DNA of 64,000 nucleotides, from NCBI GenBank assembly GCA_019192445.1, contig JAHCMK010000004.1, positions 186,001 to 250,000 of the forward strand, read 5' to 3'. Positions 2,586 to 18,478 of the stretch are shown one piece after another; the first letter of the stretch is position 1, and the number at the start of each line of letters is the position of its first letter. The notes under the pieces were generated by a model that did no database searches, had not been told where the DNA came from, and was given only the letters and a program-made list of their open reading frames with translations. This DNA is from Oceanococcus sp. HetDA_MAG_MS8 (GTDB taxonomy: Bacteria > Pseudomonadota > Gammaproteobacteria > Nevskiales > Oceanococcaceae). The position numbers and the translations under genes are program-made.

Positions 2586-4104
2586 TGCGCGCCACCTTTT
2601 GAATGAGTCTAGTCGTGGAGTACCCCTCGGCCAGGGGCACGATGCAAACCCGGCCGCCCTGAGCTTGGACATGCGCAGCACCGACGACTTCTTCAGGCTT
2701 GTAATCGCCACCCTTGACCAAGACGTCCGGACTGACCGATTGAATCAGGCCGAGCGGAGTGTCCTCGTCAAAAACAACCAAGGCGTCTACATCGCGAATG
2801 CCTTGGAGCATTCTTAAACGCTCCGCCAAACTATTGACCGGCCGCTGCGGGCCTTTCAGCCTACGCACGCCCTCATCACTGTTCAGCGCCAGCAATAAGC
2901 AATCGCCTTCAGCTCGCGCTCGACGCAGGCATTCCAAGTGGCCCCAATGCAACAGATCGAAACAACCGTTGGTCATCACAATACGCCGACCTAAACGACG
3001 CTGGTTAGCGACCCATGCCGCTAAGGTAGTCTGATCCAAAACCGGCGGAAGACCGGAGCCCGCCTGGGTGAGCGCAGCCTGCAGCTCTACCCGCGTCAAT
3101 GCCTTTGTGCCTGGGGTCGACACGGCTAAGCCACCAGCCACGTTGGCCAGTTCTGCCGCCTGCTCCAATGGCATTCCAGCAGCTAGCGCGGCTGCAATCA
3201 CAGCCACAAAACTGTCTCCCGCCCCCGTCACATCAAAGACCTCCAAAGCCTGCGCGGGTAGGTGTAATGGAGGAGTATCTGCGGTGTACACACTGACCCC
3301 ATCGGAACCACGCGTCACCACCAGAGCTTGTATCCCCGCCCAGGCTCGCAGAGCCTGCGCGTCTTCTTCCACTGAACCTCGACCCTGTCCCCAAAATGAG
3401 CGAGCGAGGTTGAATTCAGACCAATTCGGAGTGAGCAGCGTTGCTCCGGAGTACCGGCGCCAATCACAATGCTTAGGGTCCGCGACGACGGGAAGCCCTG
3501 CTTCGACGGCCGATTGGATATGAACTTGCACCTCGGCCAGAGTGCCTTTGGCGTAATCAGATAGCAGCAGTACATCAGCATCCCGGAGCTGCTTTCTTAG
3601 GGCGCTGGCCAAGCCTAGGTCTTGAGCGGCCTTCTCGTACGCGGCCGGCAAAGGCTCATAATCGAATCGCAGCAACTGTTGCCCGCGCGAGATAACGCGT
3701 GTTTTGCGAATCGTTGGCAATCCCGCCGCCATTAATAACTGGGCCGAAATGCCCACGCGGCCCACTTGCTCAAGCATAACCTGAGCCTGGGGGTCATCCC
3801 CAACCAAGCCCAATAGGCGCACCTCCAGGCCCAGTCCGGCTAGGTTGGCAGCCACATTCGCGGCGCCACCAAGTCGCTGGTCCTCCCCGCGGACCTGCAC
3901 TACGGGCACGGGAGCTTCTGGGGACACCCTCGCAGTATCGCCGTAGACACTGTGATCCAGCATCACGTCTCCGCAAACCACAATCCGCAAAGCAGAAAAA
4001 TCAGGACAGCTCAGTCTCACTGCCAACTCGGGGAGTGCTACCTTAAGCGACGCCCTCCTCCGACACCTCGTACAGGTTGAATTCCAAACGCAAGCGTACG
4101 CCAT
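2575..4104 (-). CDS. hldE: Bifunctional heptose-7-phosphate kinase / heptose-1-phosphate adenylyltransferase
   Basis: Two-domain enzyme making ADP-heptose for LPS core. The ribokinase-like domain covers about residues 35-340 (SPEAPVPVV, GGAANVAANLAGLG, and the anion-hole/base motif DVTGAGDSF). The cytidylyltransferase-like domain covers about 370-509 (TNGCFDLLHWGH with the HxGH signature, then LNSDEGVRRLKG). The first ~19 residues from ATG 4104 are Arg/Cys-rich and unlike the family, whose N-terminus aligns with LKVALPELA at codon 20. A strong GGAGGAGGG sits 5 bases before that codon, but the codon is CTT. ATG 4104 has a weaker AGAGG upstream. The start is therefore unsettled; TTG 4026 and GTG 4020 are other options. 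Confidence 0.92.
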   Translation of the reverse strand: MAYACVWNSTCTRCRRRASLKVALPELAVRLSCPDFSALRIVVCGDVMLDHSVYGDTARVSPEAPVPVVQVRGEDQRLGGAANVAANLAGLGLEVRLLGLVGDDPQAQVMLEQVGRVGISAQLLMAAGLPTIRKTRVISRGQQLLRFDYEPLPAAYEKAAQDLGLASALRKQLRDADVLLLSDYAKGTLAEVQVHIQSAVEAGLPVVADPKHCDWRRYSGATLLTPNWSEFNLARSFWGQGRGSVEEDAQALRAWAGIQALVVTRGSDGVSVYTADTPPLHLPAQALEVFDVTGAGDSFVAVIAAALAAGMPLEQAAELANVAGGLAVSTPGTKALTRVELQAALTQAGSGLPPVLDQTTLAAWVANQRRLGRRIVMTNGCFDLLHWGHLECLRRARAEGDCLLLALNSDEGVRRLKGPQRPVNSLAERLRMLQGIRDVDALVVFDEDTPLGLIQSVSPDVLVKGGDYKPEEVVGAAHVQAQGGRVCIVPLAEGYSTTRLIQKVARNEH

Positions 4105-8657: not shown

Positions 8658-8808
8658 ACCCGGTACCGCAAACGCGAAGAGTCAGCCCATGCTGATTGCC
8701 AATTGAGGTTTGCGGATAACGATCGGCCCCATCATTTCTACCCAGCCGCGCAGGTTTCTAGCCGGGCTTGGGTATATGGTGGAACCACTGCTCTACAGGA
8801 CCAGCCAG

Positions 8809-10371
8809 ATGCCCACCTACGACCGCCGCAGTTTTTTGCAGCTGAGTGGCCAAGGCCTAGGGCTCAGCGCCTTTGCCACGCTGTTGCCGAGCTGTGGAGG
8901 CGACGACAGTTCGGGTTCTGAGGCCCCAGCGCCCTCGCCAACCCCCACACCTGACCCCGGCCCACAGGCTGTTCTGCCAGCTCCTGCCCCTGAGGTGCTC
9001 ATGCTCAAGCGCACCAGCTTTGGCCCCAGTAAGGCGAGCCATGCTGAGATCCAGGCCTTAGGAATACCGGGCTACCTGGAACAACAGCTCAATCCGCAGA
9101 GTATCGACACGACAGCACTCGAAAACACGGTTGCGCAGCGCTACCCGCGTACCCTACAAAGCATTCCAGTACAGCGCGCCGGCTTTCCGGATAACCAGCA
9201 GAGCACCATTGAGCAGTTATTGCAGGCGAGGCTGCTGCGCGCATTTACCTCCCCCGCCCAACTCTTAGAGACGATGGTGGAGTTCTGGCTAGACCATTTC
9301 AATGTAGACCTACGCAATGGGGTCGCATCGATTTTTCATGGCAGCTGGGAGCGCGACACCATACGCGCCCACACATTCGGCGCATTTCGAGACTTGCTGG
9401 GAGCAACAGCGCGGGCCCCTGCCATGCTCTACTACCTGGACAATTTCCTCAACGTAGCCTCCAGCCCCCAAGAAAACTACGCCCGCGAGCTGCTGGAGCT
9501 GCATACCTTAGGCGTGGATGGGGGCTACACCGAAACCGACATTAAAGAGGTAGCCCGCTGCTTCACAGGCTGGACACTAGATCGCGAAACTGGCCAATTT
9601 CGCTACCTGCCGGCCATCCATGACAATGGCAGTAAAGTCGTTCTAGGGCAGTTTATTCCCGCCGGCGGTGGCCAGAGCGACGTGGAAACTGTGCTCGACA
9701 TCTTGGCCACGCATCCAGCCACAGCACGCCATCTGGCCACCAAATTGTGCCGGCGCTACATTGGTGACACGCCGCCAATTGCAGCCATTGACGCCGTGGA
9801 GCAAAGCTTTGTCGCAACCAAGGGCGATATGCGGTCCTGCCTACGGACGCTGCTGCAATCCGCAGAGTTTGCTGGCTCAGCTGACCAAAAGTTCGCCAGG
9901 CCCATGGAGTTTTTGGGCCAGATGTGGCGCGCCATGCCTCCTGCGAGCGGCTTTCCTCAAGGCAACGATGCCCGGATTCTGCTCGCGCTCTTAGACCAAC
10001 TCGGTCAGGCTCCGTACTTCTGGCCCGCCCCGAACGGTTACCCAGATATCGCCAGCTATTGGGCCAGTACTAGCGGTCTGCTAAACCGCTGGCGGCAGTC
10101 TTTACTGCCAAATGTTCCGCAGTTCTCGAATCTTGTGGATGTGCAAGCCTTGCTGGGGGAGGCCCGCACCCAAGAAGACATGGTCATTCACCTGGAGGCT
10201 GGTCTGCTGTTTCGGTCTCTGAGTGACACCGACCGCGAGCTGGTGCTGAGCTATCTCCAAGAGCAAACCGGCTTTGCCTCCACTACCGAACTGCCAGCCT
10301 CGGCCATCTCCACGGTGGGCGGACTCACCGCCAGCCTGTTGATGAGCTCCGTGTACTTCCAACTGCGCTGA
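8809..10371 (+). CDS. DUF1800 family exported protein with Tat-like signal and lipobox
   Basis: 520 residues from ATG 8809, chosen because AGGA lies 8 bases upstream and because the true N-terminus carries a twin-arginine motif (DRRSFLQL) followed by a hydrophobic stretch and a LLPSC lipobox. A Pro/Thr/Asp-rich linker follows. The body carries family features such as FGPS near the N-terminus, ARELLELHTLGVDGGYTE and RCFTGWTLD. DUF1800 proteins have no established activity and are usually encoded beside DUF1501 proteins, as here. The product is predicted to be exported folded by Tat and lipid-anchored. Confidence 0.85.
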   Translation: MPTYDRRSFLQLSGQGLGLSAFATLLPSCGGDDSSGSEAPAPSPTPTPDPGPQAVLPAPAPEVLMLKRTSFGPSKASHAEIQALGIPGYLEQQLNPQSIDTTALENTVAQRYPRTLQSIPVQRAGFPDNQQSTIEQLLQARLLRAFTSPAQLLETMVEFWLDHFNVDLRNGVASIFHGSWERDTIRAHTFGAFRDLLGATARAPAMLYYLDNFLNVASSPQENYARELLELHTLGVDGGYTETDIKEVARCFTGWTLDRETGQFRYLPAIHDNGSKVVLGQFIPAGGGQSDVETVLDILATHPATARHLATKLCRRYIGDTPPIAAIDAVEQSFVATKGDMRSCLRTLLQSAEFAGSADQKFARPMEFLGQMWRAMPPASGFPQGNDARILLALLDQLGQAPYFWPAPNGYPDIASYWASTSGLLNRWRQSLLPNVPQFSNLVDVQALLGEARTQEDMVIHLEAGLLFRSLSDTDRELVLSYLQEQTGFASTTELPASAISTVGGLTASLLMSSVYFQLR

Positions 10372-10382
10372 GGGAGGACCCC

Positions 10383-11558
10383 ATGTCCCTAACCCGCCAC
10401 CATCTGCTGCACGGACGCTGGAAGTCGGATTCCGACCAAGCACCCGTACTGATCTGCATCTTCCAGCGCGGAGCTGCCGATGCTTTGAACAGCCTGGTTC
10501 CGTACCAGGATGACGATTACTATCACGCGCGCCCCACGCTCGCCCTGCCAGCGCCGCAGGGCAGCAGCCAGACCCTGGATGTGGACGGCTTTTTTGCCCT
10601 GCCCCAAGCCAGCGCCGGACTCAAAACCCTCTACGATCAGGGGCATTTGGCCTTAATCCCGGCCTGCGGACTACCGCATGGAAGTCGCTCGCACTTCGAC
10701 GCGCAAACCCTGGTGGAGTCCGGGGTTACTGACAAGACCCAGGTGGACCTGGGATGGTTAGGCCGCTACCTCCAAGCCACCGCTTCGCCGCACGACGCCC
10801 TGTTTCGCGCGACGGCCATCTCGGGTAGTGTGCCCCGCGCCCTACTGGGCGCACCGGACCCGCTGGCCGTGTCCAGCCTGGGCGACTTTGGCCTGGGCGA
10901 GTTAGGCGGCAGCCCCTACCAGGACCTATTGTCTGAGCTTTACGGCAGCAACACACCCTATAACCAGGAGGCGCAATCGGCACTCGGGGCCATGGATGTC
11001 CTAGCCATGGCTCAACCTGAACAATTCTTGCCAGACAATGGCGCCGACTATCCCGCAGGAGAGCTCGGCGGCAAGTTGCTGCAGGCTGCACAAATCATCA
11101 AGGCCAATATGGGAGCTGAAATCCTCTGCCTGGATGTCGGTGGCTGGGATCACCACGAAAACCAGGCCAACTTTTTGCCAGGCTCACTGCAAGGACTGGC
11201 GGACAGCCTGCTGGCCCTGCATACCGACCTGGGAACACGGATGCAGCGAGTTACTGTTCTGGTGATGACCGAGTTCGGCCGACGCGTAGCCGAGAACGGC
11301 TCGCGGGGGACTGACCACGGCAGCGCAGGACTGGTGTACGCCCTCGGCGCCGGCGTTCAGGGCGGCCAGATTCATGGGCGCTGGCCTGGGCTATCAGCCG
11401 CGAATTTACAAGATGGAGAAGACCTTGCCATCACCACCGACCTACGCAGCCTGCTCGTCCAAACTCTTTCACGACGACTGGGTTTCGCGAATGCCCTCAG
11501 CCTCTTTCCAGGGTTTACGGAGCCCGCCCAGCCGCCGCAGGTCATAGCGCCTAGCTGA
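10383..11558 (+). CDS. DUF1501 family protein
   Basis: 391 residues, ATG preceded by GGGAGGA and only 11 bases after the DUF1800 stop, so the two form an operon. The family core is visible: LICIFQRGAADALNSLVPY near the N-terminus, YHARPTLALP, the conserved DVGGWDHHENQ segment and a TEFGRRVAENGSRGTDHGS segment resembling the metal site of alkaline phosphatase/sulfatase-like proteins. Unlike many family members no twin-arginine or Sec signal is seen at the N-terminus, so export would need the DUF1800 partner or does not occur. Function unknown. Confidence 0.85.
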   Translation: MSLTRHHLLHGRWKSDSDQAPVLICIFQRGAADALNSLVPYQDDDYYHARPTLALPAPQGSSQTLDVDGFFALPQASAGLKTLYDQGHLALIPACGLPHGSRSHFDAQTLVESGVTDKTQVDLGWLGRYLQATASPHDALFRATAISGSVPRALLGAPDPLAVSSLGDFGLGELGGSPYQDLLSELYGSNTPYNQEAQSALGAMDVLAMAQPEQFLPDNGADYPAGELGGKLLQAAQIIKANMGAEILCLDVGGWDHHENQANFLPGSLQGLADSLLALHTDLGTRMQRVTVLVMTEFGRRVAENGSRGTDHGSAGLVYALGAGVQGGQIHGRWPGLSAANLQDGEDLAITTDLRSLLVQTLSRRLGFANALSLFPGFTEPAQPPQVIAPS

Positions 11559-11696: not shown

Positions 11697-11724
11697 TTGC
11701 AAATGAAAATCGTTCTTGTATGCT
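11697..11724 (+). promoter_or_regulatory. Sigma-70-like promoter overlapped by a Fur-box-like operator
   Basis: TTGCAA (11697-11702) and TATGCT (11719-11724) are spaced by 16 bases. Bases 11699-11717 match the 19-bp Fur consensus at 13 of 19 positions (GcaAATGAaAATCgTTcTt), covering the whole promoter spacer, where a repressor would block polymerase. It is 86 bases upstream of the collagen-like lipoprotein ATG. The match was made by eye; no background score was computed. Downstream imelysin-like and TonB-receptor genes agree with iron control. Confidence 0.6.
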
Positions 11725-11809
11725 CTTGCATCTAGAGTGTGATGAAGCCCGTACAAACGAGTTGATGTCGCCTCTGTTTTGCAAATCAAAGCGCAAGGAG
11801 CAGCTCTTA

Positions 11810-13345
11810 ATGCATAGACAGTTTTTGTTTGCCGCACTCACGGTAAGCGTGTTGGGATTGACCGCCTGTGATGGTGATGACGGCGCAGTAGGAGCTCAGG
11901 GCCCGGTCGGACCAGCAGGCCCTGCGGGCGCTGATGGCACAGCAGCATCCGCTGCGGATGTCACAGTCGCAGCGGACCGCGTGACCACATCGGCCAATGA
12001 CTTACGTGGGCTGACCTATGCGCGGGTCGCCCCGCATGCCAACAAGCTATATGCCTCTGGTCATGTGGGTACCGCTGATGATTCCCGACAAGTCGTGGTT
12101 GCTCGCCTGTTCGCCGATGGCAGCCCTGACACCAGCTTCGGCGCGGATGGCTTCGTTGAGTTGGAAGCCACCGCCACCCAAGGCAGTGGTGACGAATTCT
12201 CTTACGGAGTTGCGGAGCTGCAAGGCGGTGACGTGGTTGTGGTCGCGCATGCCCTGGACGCCGATGGTGGACAGTCGGTTTATTTGTTCCGACTGAACTC
12301 TGATGGGGAGCAAGTTGCTGGATGGGGCGATGCTCAAGGCAAAGTCGAAGTTGTCTTTGGTTACCCCAATTCCGCTAACGGAGACTTCCCCGGCGCCCCA
12401 GCAACCCTCCCTGAAGACATCGCCTGGGACGTGCTAGTTGACCGCAGCACTACAACAGATCGTGTTGTGGTCTTTGGCCAAGGCTCGGCCAATGACGGAA
12501 CCCGCACCGATCGCGATCGCTACGTGGCCAGAGTCAACATTACCGCCACCGGCGCTGAAGCAGACCCCAGCTTCAACAATGGGAACGCCTTCTCGTACAA
12601 CGCCACCGGAGTCCTCAACGACAGTGAGCGGCGTGGCCTGGTGGAAGCAGACGGCAAGATCATGTCCTCTGGATATACCGATTTAGGCGGCAGCCTGGAT
12701 AATCACATCTTCCAGATTCGTCTGAATGCAGACGGCAGCATTGACGAAACCTTTGGCGGCTTCAGCGATGAGGCGTCGATCCCTGCCCAGCCCGGCGTTG
12801 CCGTGTTCAACCCCTTCAAAGTCGACGGTGGCTATGCCGAAACCTATGGTGCCGTCTTCCAGCCCAGCACCGCCGCCTACGTGATTGTGGGCTACTGCGA
12901 AGCCACCTCACGAGACGCCACCGAGTCCACCTTGGGATACGAGGTATCGGTCGCTCAGGACATGTGCGCCTTCCGCGTCTCTAGCGGCACGGCGGCCAGT
13001 ATCGATATGAGCTTTGGCGATATGGGCACGGTCATTGTGCAATCTGAAAACCAGGGCTTCCCGACCAGCGAAGACCGTGGACGGCACATGGTCATGCTGC
13101 CGGATAATCGGGTCTTGATTGCCGGCCGTTACGGCGGCATCCCAGCTGCCTTTGTGCTCACCCCCGATGGCGTGCTCGATACCCGCGTTGATGGTGACGG
13201 CATTATCGAACTTGGAGGCTCCAGCGTGAACAGTCAGTTCTTCGGAATTGCTCTGTCTCCTGATGGTCGACGCGTCGCGCTGTCGACCAATACCAGCGAT
13301 GCTGGAGCGCGCGTCGTCGTACTCAAAATCGGCCTAGATTCCTGA
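11810..13345 (+). CDS. Collagen-like lipoprotein with delta-60 beta-propeller repeats
   Basis: 511 residues from ATG 11810, which has AAGGAG 9 bases upstream (longer in-frame starts lack this and precede the signal peptide). The signal peptide ends in LTAC (Cys20). Right after it come about eight Gly-X-Y triplets (GDD GAV GAQ GPV GPA GPA GAD GTA), a short collagen-like stalk. The rest has repeated delta-60 type units such as LFADGSPDTSFGADG, LNADGSIDETFGG and LTPDGVLDT, expected to form a beta-propeller. Probably a surface or periplasmic lipoprotein; ligand unknown. It is the first gene behind the Fur-like promoter and is followed by a strong terminator. Confidence 0.82.
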   Translation: MHRQFLFAALTVSVLGLTACDGDDGAVGAQGPVGPAGPAGADGTAASAADVTVAADRVTTSANDLRGLTYARVAPHANKLYASGHVGTADDSRQVVVARLFADGSPDTSFGADGFVELEATATQGSGDEFSYGVAELQGGDVVVVAHALDADGGQSVYLFRLNSDGEQVAGWGDAQGKVEVVFGYPNSANGDFPGAPATLPEDIAWDVLVDRSTTTDRVVVFGQGSANDGTRTDRDRYVARVNITATGAEADPSFNNGNAFSYNATGVLNDSERRGLVEADGKIMSSGYTDLGGSLDNHIFQIRLNADGSIDETFGGFSDEASIPAQPGVAVFNPFKVDGGYAETYGAVFQPSTAAYVIVGYCEATSRDATESTLGYEVSVAQDMCAFRVSSGTAASIDMSFGDMGTVIVQSENQGFPTSEDRGRHMVMLPDNRVLIAGRYGGIPAAFVLTPDGVLDTRVDGDGIIELGGSSVNSQFFGIALSPDGRRVALSTNTSDAGARVVVLKIGLDS

Positions 13346-13360
13346 TCGTCTTGGCCAGAT

Positions 13361-13394
13361 ACAGTGGTGCAACCATGGGTTGCACCACTGTTTT
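13361..13394 (+). terminator. Strong Rho-independent terminator
   Basis: A perfect 14-bp stem (ACAGTGGTGCAACC paired with its complement) with a 3-base loop is followed by TTTTAT. It lies 16 bases after the stop of the delta-60 lipoprotein gene and should end most transcripts from the Fur-like promoter. Confidence 0.9.
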
Positions 13395-13496
13395 ATCTCT
13401 GCCGCCTAAAATGCGGCTCAGCTTATTGATTTCTGCACGCAATCACAGCTGAATCCACACCGCCTGCATCCTTAGAACTCTTCCGTGGAGTCCCCC

Positions 13497-14810
13497 ATGT
13501 CCTACCAAACCCCACCGTCGCTGGAAGCTTGTCCTGCGCTGCGTACCACAATCTATGCGGCGCTCCTCACTTTGACTGTGGCCTGCGGTGGTGGCGGTGG
13601 AGGCTCTTCGGCGGCAGACCCAGACCCCACAGCTGCACCGACACCCACGACCTCACCCACGCCTGCCCCGGGCGACGGTGGCGAGCAGCCCGTAGAAGGC
13701 GATGCTGCCCGTCGGGCCGTGCTCAGCGACATCGGTAGCAACATTGTGTTGCCAGCACTGCGCGACTTCGAACAGCAGGCGCTCGCTTTGCAAACTGCTG
13801 TTGCGGGCCTTGCCGCCAGCCCCGGTGACGCAACTGCCATAGCAAGTGCACGTGCTGCCTGGGTAGCGGCTATGGCGAGTTGGCAGCGCAATGAGGTCTA
13901 CCAGGTCGGCCCTGCGGGGCGCTCCAGCAACCCCGATGCTGTGGCTGGCGGTCAGGACTTCCGCGACCTCATATATTCCTGGCCCTTCACCTTGGATCGT
14001 TGCGGCATTGAAGGCGCTGCCCTGAATGGCAGTGCTGTCACCGCGGCAACCCCCGTCAATCAGGTCGGTTTAGGGGCACTGGAGTACTTGCTGTACACCA
14101 ATGGCCCCGACGCGGATTGCCCAGATGCGCCAACCACCGCGCAGCGGGCAGCGCATGCTGCGCGCCTTGCCGATCGTTTGGTGGTTCTAGCGAGCGCCCT
14201 GCGCCAGCGTTGGGAGCCAGATGATGGCAATTTCCTGGCTCAGTGGAGCCGTGCCGGCCTGGATAGCGTCACCTACTCCGCCCCTCAAGACGCCCTGGAT
14301 GCGCTGTCCATAGCCTTGTTCCACGTGGAGAAGGTGAGCAAAGATCGCAAAACCGCTTTGCCTACCGGGATCCCGGTATCCGGGCTGGAGTGTTCAGACC
14401 CAGTAGCGTGTCCGGAATTTCTGGAGTCGCCGCTGTCGCAAACCTCTGGCGCTCACTTGCTGGTGAATATGCGGGCCTTCCGCGACATCTTCACCGGCGT
14501 TGATGGATCTATGGGGATCAACGACCTGCTCATTGGTGTTGGACGCCAAGACCTTGCCGATGACCTCATCACCGAACTCGACCTTGCCATCGATGCCATG
14601 GAAGCTATTGAGGCTGGAGCGGGTTTTGATGCCGCGGTCGCTGCGATTGATGACTCTACCGAGTGTGTCAACGCCTCGTCGAATGCTACAGGTTTGGCGC
14701 CCTGTGCCTTCCATGGACTGATCAAAAACGCCATGGATATCTTCCGTGCACCCATCGTATCGGCGCTTGGCCTGGCCATCCCCCAAGCCGCTGCTGGTGA
14801 CAACGACTAG
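13497..14810 (+). CDS. Imelysin-like (peptidase M75 family) lipoprotein
   Basis: 437 residues from ATG 13497 (GGAG 6 bases upstream; GTG 13485 also in frame). N-terminal signal with a LTVAC lipobox followed by a Gly-rich run and a Pro/Thr linker. The body is mostly helical and contains the segment NQVGLGALEYLLYTNGPD, which corresponds to the family GxHxxE region but has Gly where His is usual. The family (IrpA, ICMP) is iron-regulated and linked to iron uptake rather than proven proteolysis. It is the first of three closely packed genes (HTTM protein 22 bases later, then a TonB-dependent receptor). Confidence 0.82.
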   Translation: MSYQTPPSLEACPALRTTIYAALLTLTVACGGGGGGSSAADPDPTAAPTPTTSPTPAPGDGGEQPVEGDAARRAVLSDIGSNIVLPALRDFEQQALALQTAVAGLAASPGDATAIASARAAWVAAMASWQRNEVYQVGPAGRSSNPDAVAGGQDFRDLIYSWPFTLDRCGIEGAALNGSAVTAATPVNQVGLGALEYLLYTNGPDADCPDAPTTAQRAAHAARLADRLVVLASALRQRWEPDDGNFLAQWSRAGLDSVTYSAPQDALDALSIALFHVEKVSKDRKTALPTGIPVSGLECSDPVACPEFLESPLSQTSGAHLLVNMRAFRDIFTGVDGSMGINDLLIGVGRQDLADDLITELDLAIDAMEAIEAGAGFDAAVAAIDDSTECVNASSNATGLAPCAFHGLIKNAMDIFRAPIVSALGLAIPQAAAGDND

Positions 14811-14831
14811 TCTCAGACAGCCTCGTTACTG

Positions 14832-16274
14832 ATGCCCACAGCCCAGACCTTGCCTCGCTTACAGGAGTGGCGTGCCCAGGCCTATGCCTGGCTGATGGCA
14901 CCCCGCGATATCGCGGCGCTGGCGGTATTCCGTATGCTCATTGGCGGTCTAATGTGTGTGGGCGCGTTGCGCTTCATGCACAACGGCTGGATCGAGCGCA
15001 TGTATGTGGAGCCCGATTTCCACTTCAAATTCTGGGGCTTTGAGTGGGTGGTAGTCCCCCCTGCGCCCGGGCTTTATGCCCTGTACTGGGGGATTGCAGC
15101 AACGGCATTCTTAGTGGCCATCGGAGCCTTTTACCGCGTCAGCATTGTGGCCTTTTGGTGTTTGTTCACCTACGCGGAGCTGATGGATGTCACCACCTAC
15201 CTGAACCACTATTACTTCATCAGCCTGATTGCATTCATTCTGTGCTTCCTCTCCCCGCACAGAGCGTGGTCGGTAGATGCTTGGCGCAGGCCGGCGCTAC
15301 GGTCGGATACTTTGCCGGCCTGGCAAAGCTACTGGCTACGTTTTCAGGTCGGGCTACTCTACTTCTATGCGGGATGGGCTAAGTTTGAAACCGACTGGCT
15401 GCTGCATGCCCAGCCTCTGAACCTGTGGCTACCACCGCTGAGCGGACTGCCTCTGCTTGGACCCTTCCTCGAATACACGGCTGTGCATTTCGCCTTCTCC
15501 TGGTTCGCCTTTGTATTCGACACCACCATCATCGCTTTCATGCTCATCCGACGCACGCGGCCCTGGGCTTTCCTAGTGATACTGGTGTTTCATTTTTTCA
15601 CCCATTTGTTCTTCAACATTGGGCTATTTCCCTTCATCATGGTTTTCTCGGTGCTCATCTTCTTTGAGCCTAATTGGCCGCGAAGATGGCTGCGCCGCTT
15701 CCACAACCGCAAAGAAGCTACCTCCACTGCGGGGCATACACCCGCGGCTCTGATAGGGCGCAAGCCCTGGCCGCTGAGGCATACGCTGGCCGCCTGGGGC
15801 ATTGCCAGCTTCTGTCTCTTCCAGTTCGTGATGCCGCTACGGCATTGGCTCTATCCCGGAACCGTTCTTTGGCATGAGCAGGGTATGCGTTTCTCCTGGC
15901 GGGTGATGCTGCGCGAAAAATCAGGAACGCTGCAGTACCGCGTGGTACACGGGCCCGAGCGCAAGACTGTTTTGATCTCCCCAAACAGCTACCTCACCGA
16001 AGACCAGTATCGGGAAATGGCCGGTCAGCCCGATATGATCCTGCAACTGGCACACCACATCCGCGATGAGTTTCTCAGCAAAGGGCTGGGGCCGGTTGAG
16101 GTGTACGCAGACTCTAAAGTCTCGCTCAATGGGCGCAAAGCGCACCCCATGATTCGGCCTGGTGCCAACCTCGCCGAGGTGCAGAACACTCTCGCCATTG
16201 CGGATTGGATTACCCCAGCTCCTAGTGAAGCCCCTCCCTTGCAAAAACCCTTGAGGTTGATGGTTCAACGATGA
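14832..16274 (+). CDS. HTTM-domain (vitamin K-dependent carboxylase-like) membrane protein
   Basis: 480 residues with several hydrophobic segments in the first ~310 residues, then a hydrophilic C-terminal region. Near the start, DIAALAVFRMLIGGLMCVGALRF and later YFYAGWAKFETDWL and FHFFTHLFFNIGLFPF are typical of HTTM proteins, bacterial relatives of gamma-glutamyl carboxylase. Bacterial members have no settled reaction. The stop overlaps the start of the TonB-dependent receptor by four bases (ATGA), showing translational coupling. A role in handling an exported partner or iron ligand is inferred from the neighbours only. Confidence 0.82.
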   Translation: MPTAQTLPRLQEWRAQAYAWLMAPRDIAALAVFRMLIGGLMCVGALRFMHNGWIERMYVEPDFHFKFWGFEWVVVPPAPGLYALYWGIAATAFLVAIGAFYRVSIVAFWCLFTYAELMDVTTYLNHYYFISLIAFILCFLSPHRAWSVDAWRRPALRSDTLPAWQSYWLRFQVGLLYFYAGWAKFETDWLLHAQPLNLWLPPLSGLPLLGPFLEYTAVHFAFSWFAFVFDTTIIAFMLIRRTRPWAFLVILVFHFFTHLFFNIGLFPFIMVFSVLIFFEPNWPRRWLRRFHNRKEATSTAGHTPAALIGRKPWPLRHTLAAWGIASFCLFQFVMPLRHWLYPGTVLWHEQGMRFSWRVMLREKSGTLQYRVVHGPERKTVLISPNSYLTEDQYREMAGQPDMILQLAHHIRDEFLSKGLGPVEVYADSKVSLNGRKAHPMIRPGANLAEVQNTLAIADWITPAPSEAPPLQKPLRLMVQR

Positions 16275-18478
16275 TCAAAACTGTGCTTGGCCTCGCCTTG
16301 TGTTTGGCGACGCTCGCAATGACTCCCACACAGGCTCTTGCTCAGGACGAGGCCGATGAGGCCGCCACTGCAGACACCGCGGATGCAGAACCGGGCTCCC
16401 TCAAATCCATGATCGTCTACGGCATCTTCGACGATCCAAACCGGGTGACTGGCTCCGCTCATCGACTGACCGAAGATCAACTAGAAGCCTTCAGGCACAC
16501 CGACATTAATCGCATCCTGAACTTCGTTCCCGGTGTGTATACCCGGGAAGAAGACGGTTTTGGCTTACGTCCCAACATTGGCTTACGCGGCGCCAGTGCC
16601 GAGAGAAGCGTGAAAGTCATGCTGATGGAAGATGGGGTTCCACTTGCGCCAGCGCCGTATTCCGCGCCTGCAGCCTACTTCTTCCCCATTAATGCACGGA
16701 TTGCCGGAGTTGAAGTCTTTAAGGGCCCCGCATCCATCCAGTACGGACCACAAACGGTGGGCGGCGCCATCAACCTGCTATCCACCCCCATTCCCAACGA
16801 CACTGAGTTTATGGCGGAACTGGGCCTGGGCGATTTCGGCTTCCAGCAGCTCCATACGCGCGGCGGTACCCGAACCGATGACTGGGGCTTTTTCGGCGAA
16901 TTTGTCCATATGGGTAGCGATGGTTTCAAAGATTTGGATGGCGGCGGCAACACCGGCTTTGACAAGAACGAGCTCATGCTTAAAGCCGGCCGCTCTTTGG
17001 GCCCCGGCGAGATCGAGTTTCGACTCTCTTACGCTGATGAAGTGTCGAACGAAACCTACCTAGGGCTCACAGAAAGCGACCTCCGGGCCCAACCCTTCCG
17101 ACGCTACGCCGCCAGCGCCTTAGATCGAATGGAGTGGACTTGGCTCAGCGGCCGCGTGGACTACACCCAGACCCTATGGGGCGGGCGCATTGCCTTGACC
17201 GCCTATGCGCAAGAATTGGAACGCGCTTGGTTGAAGTTCAATAATTTCCGTGGGGCCAATATCGGCGATGTGCTCAACAATCCCGAGGGCCCCATCAATC
17301 AACTCTTCGTGGGCATCCTGAATGGAAACAATACGGATGGCGTGAGTGGCTCACCCGATGACATCCTCATCGGCACGAATGATCGCCTGATTAATCAATC
17401 GGGCCTTCAGGGGCGCTTCGAATTGACATTTGGCAACGCCATTGCGCATTCCCTGGAGCTGGGAGCCCGGCTGCATACCGATCGTATCCGTCGCCTGCAT
17501 GACGAGTTTGCCTATGAACAGGACCAGGGCGAACTCGTAATCAATGACCAAGCTCGATCAATCACAACCGACAACACCGGTTGGACGCGTGCACTCTCGA
17601 TATGGGCACAGGATGAAATGTCGATTGGACGCTGGCTCATTGTTCCTGGTTTACGCATTGAAGCCATCCAAAACAGCTTCAACAATCGCCTGGTACCCGC
17701 CAAGCAAGAGAATGATTATTTAGAGCTGCTACCAGGTATTGGCGTGATCTATGCTGCAAGCGCGCAGCTGGACCTCATCGCCGGGGTGCATCGCGGATTC
17801 TCTCCAGCGCTTCCGTCACTCACGGAAGATTTGGAACCTGAGGAATCCCTGAACTTTGAATTGGGGAGCCGCTGGCAAAGCCCCTTAGGCTTTGTGGAGC
17901 TGATGGCCTTCTACAATGACTACAGCAACCTCACTGCCGTATGTACCGTTTCCGCAGGATGCGCGCCGGGCGACCTTGACACCCAGACCAGCGCCGGTCA
18001 GGTTGTCACTCAGGGCCTGGAACTAGGCTGGAATCATAGCTTTGCAGCGACAAAGGAGTATTCCATCCCGGTCAGCATTAACTACACCTATACCGACGCT
18101 GAGTTTGGGGAAGACTTCTCCTCTACCAATCCCCAATATGGTGATGTTGAGGAAGGCTTTGAGCTGCCGTACTTACCTCCGCACCGAGGCAACGCGACTG
18201 TGGGTCTGGCCTCACAACAATGGGATCTCAATCTCTCCATCACCTACATCGACCGCATGCGCGATGTGGCAGGGGCTGGTCCCTTTGCCGCCAATGAAGG
18301 CTCGGATGAAACCACGGTGATCGATCTGGCTGGACGCTACCGGCACGGCAAACACTGGACTCTCACCGCCAGAATCGACAACCTTGCCGACGAGGTTTAC
18401 GTAGTATCGCGGCGGCCGTTTGGGGCTAGACCTGGGCTTCCCAGGAGTGCCCGGCTGCTATTGCGCTACGACTATTAG
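16271..18478 (+). CDS. TonB-dependent outer-membrane receptor (FecA-like)
   Basis: 735 residues. Signal peptide of ~24 residues ending ALA, then a short acidic segment and a TonB-box-like SMIVYG. The plug domain (~60-180) includes LRPNIGLRGASAERSVKVMLMEDGVPLAPAPY and FKGPASIQYGPQTVGGAINL. The rest is a 22-strand-type barrel with FELGSRWQ, and it ends in an aromatic residue (LLLRYDY). The plug resembles Fe(III)-citrate type receptors. It is coupled to the HTTM gene and lies in an iron-themed cluster, so an iron chelate is the likely ligand, though not proven. Confidence 0.92.
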   Translation: MIKTVLGLALCLATLAMTPTQALAQDEADEAATADTADAEPGSLKSMIVYGIFDDPNRVTGSAHRLTEDQLEAFRHTDINRILNFVPGVYTREEDGFGLRPNIGLRGASAERSVKVMLMEDGVPLAPAPYSAPAAYFFPINARIAGVEVFKGPASIQYGPQTVGGAINLLSTPIPNDTEFMAELGLGDFGFQQLHTRGGTRTDDWGFFGEFVHMGSDGFKDLDGGGNTGFDKNELMLKAGRSLGPGEIEFRLSYADEVSNETYLGLTESDLRAQPFRRYAASALDRMEWTWLSGRVDYTQTLWGGRIALTAYAQELERAWLKFNNFRGANIGDVLNNPEGPINQLFVGILNGNNTDGVSGSPDDILIGTNDRLINQSGLQGRFELTFGNAIAHSLELGARLHTDRIRRLHDEFAYEQDQGELVINDQARSITTDNTGWTRALSIWAQDEMSIGRWLIVPGLRIEAIQNSFNNRLVPAKQENDYLELLPGIGVIYAASAQLDLIAGVHRGFSPALPSLTEDLEPEESLNFELGSRWQSPLGFVELMAFYNDYSNLTAVCTVSAGCAPGDLDTQTSAGQVVTQGLELGWNHSFAATKEYSIPVSINYTYTDAEFGEDFSSTNPQYGDVEEGFELPYLPPHRGNATVGLASQQWDLNLSITYIDRMRDVAGAGPFAANEGSDETTVIDLAGRYRHGKHWTLTARIDNLADEVYVVSRRPFGARPGLPRSARLLLRYDY

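Follow-up and report, generated by a model that had tools for sequence, protein, structure and literature searches.

Imelysins have been linked with iron and with EfeB-type peroxidases (PMC3143127). Both PA4370-4373 of Pseudomonas aeruginosa and EfeUOB combine an imelysin and a Fur or iron link with an adjoining redox enzyme. We analyzed a stretch of 64,000 nucleotides (the window) from Oceanococcus sp. HetDA_MAG_MS8, positions 186,001 to 250,000 of contig JAHCMK010000004.1 (C4) of this 3.53-Mb genome, and found a four-gene run on the forward strand that resembles these systems in the same three respects. Its imelysin is of the GxxxxE type, as is PA4372. In contrast to PA4370-4373 and EfeUOB, the run (hereafter, with its relatives, the module) has a relative of the vitamin K-dependent gamma-carboxylase (GGCX) in place of the peroxidase, and the set includes a TonB receptor and a lipoprotein of the delta-60 or DUF4856 family.

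Bacterial relatives of GGCX have been noted before. Leptospira likewise encodes a GGCX homologue, in which Lys218 is replaced, whereas the module proteins keep Lys218 in all 142 sequences compared. In Riemerella anatipestifer, Table 4 of PMC5609570 gives RAYM_09779 as a TonB receptor, 09784 as a vitamin K-dependent gamma-carboxylase, 09789 as an imelysin and 09794 as a hypothetical protein, with low-iron/high-iron RNA-seq values of 2.11, 2.64, 3.07, and 2.41, respectively. The main text of that paper contains ‘vitamin k’ and ‘imelysin’ once each, both in this table. The Riemerella set has the same four annotations as the module, neighbouring locus tags and an iron response, but it belongs to another phylum than the window and is likened to it by annotation alone. 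Elsewhere, a clinical review of GGCX (PMC5343777) mentions bacterial HTTM. In the available text of three iron papers (PMC5429918, PMC7221216, PMC9618737) neither HTTM nor the carboxylase is named under the terms used, and the same holds for the carboxylase in two others (PMC5976166, PMC7976709), for which HTTM was not itself a term throughout. Three further papers (PMC9478572, PMC7567364, PMC13066512) name imelysins, without HTTM or the carboxylase under the terms used in the parts available. A description of the module was not found among the papers listed by the literature searches, which included few subscription papers.

The features of the locus are the following:

11697..11724, + strand: Fur-like site over a weak sigma-70-like promoter, TTGCAA-N16-TATGCT (matrix 16.7 bits; 13/19 consensus)
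11810..13345, + strand: delta-60/DUF5122 beta-propeller lipoprotein (PF17164, E 5e-16; TIGR02608, E 5e-28; lipobox LTAC)
13361..13391, + strand: terminator-like hairpin, a 14-pair stem followed by TTTTAT (longest stem in the terminator scan)
13485..14810, + strand: imelysin lipoprotein, GxxxxE type, C-terminus GDND (PF09375, E 1e-25)
14832..16274, + strand: vitamin K-dependent gamma-carboxylase homologue (PF05090, E 6e-83; PF22777, E 1e-43; PDB GGCX, E 2.4e-60)
16271..18478, + strand: TonB-dependent receptor (PF00593, PF07715)

An earlier reading of the locus, made from the letters alone (the sequence-only reading), had named four envelope genes, and all four were recovered by Pfam and NCBIfam matches. 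The last three are tightly packed, as that reading had it: a gap of 21 bp separates the imelysin and HTTM genes, and the HTTM and receptor genes overlap by 4 bp (ATGA). The imelysin gene has two candidate starts, GTG at 13485 or ATG at 13500.

The third gene product had been called an HTTM protein. The HTTM domain is present, but the label is too narrow, as the protein also contains a VKGC lumenal domain, and the same pair is found in loci L035 and L064. When a profile of seven HTTM proteins was searched against the PDB, all eight sequences at E ≤1 were named vitamin K-dependent gamma-carboxylase (best match E 2.4e-60), with the alignment spanning human residues 48-505. The membrane enzyme step that the sequence-only reading had left unnamed can now be called GGCX-like, with intact catalytic residues. 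Residues were compared in 142 module proteins and 25 others, excluding two short HTTM pieces of L224, and their catalytic, quinone-ring and substrate roles were taken from work on GGCX (PMC12589487, PMC9146348), in which the Glu side chain is held by N159 and H160 (PMC12589487). N159, H160, Y211, K218, W223, F286, F299, and D442 (human numbering) are kept in 142/142 module proteins. The core over human 48-505, Lys218, His160, Asn159, and the quinone-ring phenylalanines are thus shared with vertebrate GGCX, while the module proteins differ from it in an identity of about 25% and in K217 (Ala in 142/142), M401 (Val in 142/142), and N290 (Thr in 141/142). The non-module proteins keep K218, H160, and N159 in 25/25 cases, and the human M401 and N290 in 23/25 each. 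The module and other proteins are separated by one split in the tree, with node supports that are uncertain after re-rooting. We consider it quite likely from these residues that the module protein is catalytically active, and plausible that it works like GGCX; the evidence does not establish that it is a vitamin K-dependent carboxylase of the vertebrate kind.

Loci with HTTM only (L183, L188, L191, L192, L199, and others) make up a second bacterial class with HTTM and lumenal domains but without an imelysin; most of its proteins have N290 and M401 as in the human enzyme. Nothing related to the HTTM protein was found on the viral contigs searched.

The gene order, a delta-60 propeller or DUF4856 protein followed by the imelysin and the HTTM/VKGC protein, is found across phyla, in most cases accompanied by a TonB receptor. 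The closest named relatives of the window HTTM protein include those of Sinimarinibacterium flocculans and a metagenome-assembled genome (MAG) of Polycyclovorans. Among the 80 nearest named relatives (the best 80 of 364, hence biased to the query), the imelysin adjoins HTTM in 77, counting the L040 imelysin, which was assigned by reading its frame, and HTTM stands alone in L079, L084, and L087. A TonB receptor lies in the stretch examined in 70 of these 77 loci. A delta-60 protein is present in 35, DUF4856 in 30, neither in 12, and both in none, so the two seem to replace each other. Loci L010, L011, and L012 are the same as L016, L017, and L019. A fairer sample is offered by 296 Bacteroidota, in which the lumenal-domain family occurs in 69 genomes with 80 matches. 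Here the imelysin adjoins HTTM in 61/80 loci, where L194 and L202 were scored as not adjoining despite carrying the module signature in the tree; DUF4856 is found in 57/80 and delta-60 in 0/80. In Gammaproteobacteria the family is rare (4/369 genomes, own included), and among 61 genomes around that of the window (own included) the protein is present in seven, one of which (L014) lacks the module. Gene classes were assigned by purpose-built profiles, with which Pfam agreed for DUF4856 in 23/27, for delta-60 in 33/33, and for imelysin, HTTM, and receptor in 10/10 tested. The synteny of HTTM, imelysin, and TonB receptor, which the sequence-only reading had proposed to check, is thus conserved, the imelysin-HTTM adjacency in both samples. 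Two loci deserve separate mention. L086 comes from a MAG named Saccharospirillaceae, although its HTTM groups with Bacteroidota, and is misbinned or transferred; L057 has two imelysin-HTTM pairs on a single contig.

The head of the module carries a Fur-like site. The sequence GCAAATGAAAATCGTTCTT at 11699-11717 has the 13/19 match to the Fur consensus that had been reported; this match is real, but as sole evidence it is weak and near chance for 64 kb, as four sites with at least 13/19 occur in the window and Markov shuffles already give a mean of 1.4 per window (one strand scanned). The promoter hexamers are likewise as previously read, with 8/12 consensus matches, and our promoter scan (minimum 9/12) did not list them. 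More telling is a Fur matrix built on 68 sites from related genomes, none from a module-bearing contig. With this matrix, 11702-11720 scores 16.7 bits, above background and the top position of the 64-kb window (next 12.5 and 7.5), a value attained in 5/200 whole-window shuffles and 1/2000 local shuffles. The runner-up lies at 3703-3721 (12.5 bits). Fur-box-like sites within two mismatches are present in 39/41 genomes (own included). The own genome has 13 sites within three mismatches of the palindromic Fur consensus (reversed control 0), some of which adjoin bfd-like and heme-uptake genes, as judged by eye from the translations, while several lie inside reading frames and are probably not Fur sites. 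Four of the sites adjoining iron or heme genes reach 23.6-26.0 bits, which makes the window site moderate by itself. Its strength comes from conservation: the module head is the locus-best matrix position in 10/10 gammaproteobacterial loci and in 39/45 loci outside Bacteroidota (70 of the 80 named loci were scored), at 16 bits or more in 32 of the 39 and at 7.3 at the lowest. By conservation, the window site is a convincing Fur-like candidate. A conserved, Fur-controlled module is the part of our interpretation that we hold to be highly probable.

A single Fur promoter heading all four genes had been proposed. The site does lie at the head, but the link to the later genes is weakened by the hairpin at 13361-13391, between the delta-60 gene and the imelysin, so that read-through may be the only way in which the site serves the other three. 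The gap containing it (13346-13499) folds with a z of -5.7. Terminator-like elements as a class are not above chance, since the terminator scan gave six matches in the window against a shuffle mean of 8.2. The propeller-imelysin gap is nevertheless more stable than dinucleotide shuffles in 7/7 gammaproteobacterial loci folded (z -3.2 to -5.7), with hairpins that differ in sequence, and may act by attenuation favouring the first lipoprotein. Other loci are arranged differently. Most Myxococcaceae loci consist of two divergent units, imelysin-HTTM and delta-60-receptor. In 18/19 divergent loci, among them the gammaproteobacterial L017, the two units flank the Fur-like site. In L012 and L013, DUF4856 comes first, there is no hairpin gap of the window type, and the Fur-like site is at the head.

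The window imelysin is the only PF09375-family match in its genome (91 bits; cut-off 23.5). It has the motif GLGALE (GxxxxE) and lacks GxHxxE. The module imelysins are of the same type, with Glu at the position of window residue 317 (aligned frame) in 79/80 and a DxD C-terminus in 78/80; both features are also found in imelysins outside the module. DxD was considered as an HTTM-specific tag and rejected, since imelysins of L083, L088, and L067 that do not adjoin HTTM end in DGD. A further imelysin occurs in L083, L067, L068, L158, L165, L166, and L215, and in each of these except L215 one imelysin has the GxHxxE motif, which places classical imelysins near the module. No peroxidase gene adjoins the window imelysin, whose neighbours are DUF5122 and HTTM; the rest of the genome was not searched for peroxidases.

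The model of the window propeller has a predicted local distance difference test (pLDDT) score of 88, with residues 17-46 disordered, and matched propellers in Foldseek, first CylK (E 1.9e-14) and also E. coli YncE. A short Gly-X-Y stretch, visible by eye, follows its lipobox LTAC, which bears out the earlier label ‘collagen-like’ to that extent; the Pfam Collagen model does not match it, and as it matches 1/33 delta-60 members, the stretch is not a family feature. The lipobox pattern is present in 35/39 delta-60, 27/33 DUF4856, and 63/90 imelysin frames, these being stop-to-stop and in some cases truncated. A DUF4856 model (L064:5619-6803) is helical (pLDDT 90), with no Foldseek match at E 0.001. 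VIA-align gave a catenin as the best match (Z 7.2, root-mean-square deviation (rmsd) 3.9 over 172) and, for imelysin 3n8u, Z 5.0 and rmsd 4.8 over 140; we do not take this as evidence of a new fold or of kinship. The DUF4856 profile had a single, chance-level match among PDB sequences (E 0.66), and no paper on DUF4856 was found in the literature searched. The best NCBIfam models for the receptor all fell below their cut-offs, and its substrate therefore cannot be named. Directly 5’ of the module (window 8710-11558) lie a DUF1800 gene and then a DUF1501 gene; both were rejected as module members, being matched in the window alone among 87 sources (the window and L009-L094).

Taken together, a multi-phylum, iron-linked envelope gene set with an imelysin lipoprotein, a TonB receptor, and a GGCX relative with intact catalytic residues holds at the level of sequence. 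The delta-60 propeller (DUF4856 elsewhere) and the TonB receptor would together carry an iron compound through the outer membrane, and its handling would fall to the imelysin lipoprotein. In the inner membrane, the GGCX-like protein would form a strong base from reduced quinone and O2, aided by Lys218, and modify a periplasmic partner protein. The likeliest modification would be a gamma-carboxylated imelysin glutamate, which would make a malonate-type iron ligand. We infer these cellular locations, with the periplasm taken as the equivalent of the endoplasmic reticulum lumen in which GGCX works. To this scheme as a whole, a Fur-repressed iron-acquisition envelope module in which a quinol-dependent enzyme modifies an envelope partner, we assign a probability of roughly 45%, the chemistry being its presumptive part. 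For this organism, an iron-type substrate is probable, while carboxylation of a module partner is put forward tentatively, as to both reaction and target. The iron-acquisition system with a membrane enzyme that had been suggested is thus supported by the Fur-like sites and the synteny; its iron substrate and chemistry are presumed.

Several observations weigh against this scheme. The Fur matrix places a site at 0/25 heads of Bacteroidota-type loci (including L086, for the grouping of its HTTM), so that homologous promoters bear out the earlier claim outside Bacteroidota only; no matrix specific to Bacteroidota was made. In PMC5609570, the iron response of the four Riemerella genes persists in a fur mutant (2.70, 2.77, 2.92, 3.07), which makes Fur control there at most partial. 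The Glu-backbone or propeptide residues N158, R436, and Y425 are, unlike in vertebrate GGCX, not generally kept in module proteins (Y425, which binds the propeptide, is Leu in the window protein), and the PDB profile search aligned no counterpart of human GGCX beyond residue 505. In the seven HTTM-positive genomes of the window’s order we found no VKOR, no MqnA, and no MenD over the cut-off (the weak matches seen were to other enzymes), and classical vitamin K use is therefore doubtful in them. An association of VKOR with the module was rejected, as VKOR occurs in 10/35 Bacteroidota with the module and in 10/35 without HTTM. MenD is over the cut-off in 34/35 module Bacteroidota and one Myxococcus, and not in G446 or the gammaproteobacterium G144. 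A pocket pair, L210 and A259, is found in 11/142 module proteins, all gammaproteobacterial; the carriers form one clade, so that the pair may have arisen just once, although an adaptation to ubiquinol could produce such a pattern. The widest form of the proposal, in which a quinol-driven GGCX-type carboxylase in at least three phyla equips a secreted envelope protein with gamma-carboxyglutamate to bind iron, and ubiquinol takes the place of vitamin K in Gammaproteobacteria without menaquinone, is speculative and rather unlikely as a whole.

The GGCX-like protein might instead be a redox enzyme that replaces EfeB or a di-heme peroxidase, its quinol altering the oxidation state or ligand of iron with no protein being modified. 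This fits a predicted quinol enzyme adjoining the only imelysin of the genome, and the retention of quinone-ring residues where several substrate-binding residues are lost. However, GGCX is not known to contain a metal or heme centre, and the holders of the Glu side chain, N159 and H160, are kept throughout (142/142), which leaves this explanation rather unlikely. The altered K217, M401, and N158 would also suit a catalytically dead protein whose sole role is that of a membrane scaffold or chaperone, but with K218, H160, N159, W223, F286, and F299 all invariant in 142/142 this is very unlikely.

The remaining alternatives concern iron and its control. The module could handle another metal or an organic compound under indirect iron control, given that the receptor reaches the cut-off of none of the substrate-specific NCBIfam models it matches and that the ligands of imelysins are unknown, tests of heme and Fe(III) binding having been negative for two of them (PMC3143127). 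Against it stand the Riemerella iron response and the Fur-like sites that head the modules, and we regard it as unlikely. We judge it similarly improbable that the Fur-like site controls the delta-60 lipoprotein alone, with imelysin, HTTM, and receptor as a separate unit free of iron control in this genome. The hairpin, a score below those of the own iron and heme sites, and the lack of a comparable Fur-like site ahead of the imelysin would be explained in this way, but not the site between the units of divergent loci, nor that at the head of L012 and L013, where no gap intervenes; and a gap hairpin shared by all seven folded loci looks like attenuation.

For the relatives of vitamin K carboxylase in bacteria, no settled role was found in the literature searched. 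What is new here is a predicted identity for the enzyme, a homologue of GGCX whose core is intact, within a cross-phylum, Fur-linked module. A large group of these relatives with intact catalytic residues is now linked with iron, a single set of partners, and a probable regulator, so that their role can be tested in bacteria that grow in culture; both Myxococcus xanthus (L035) and Sinimarinibacterium flocculans (L016) bear the module. The comparison also marks DUF4856 as a lipoprotein family linked to iron and suggests that imelysin systems may use differing redox enzymes.

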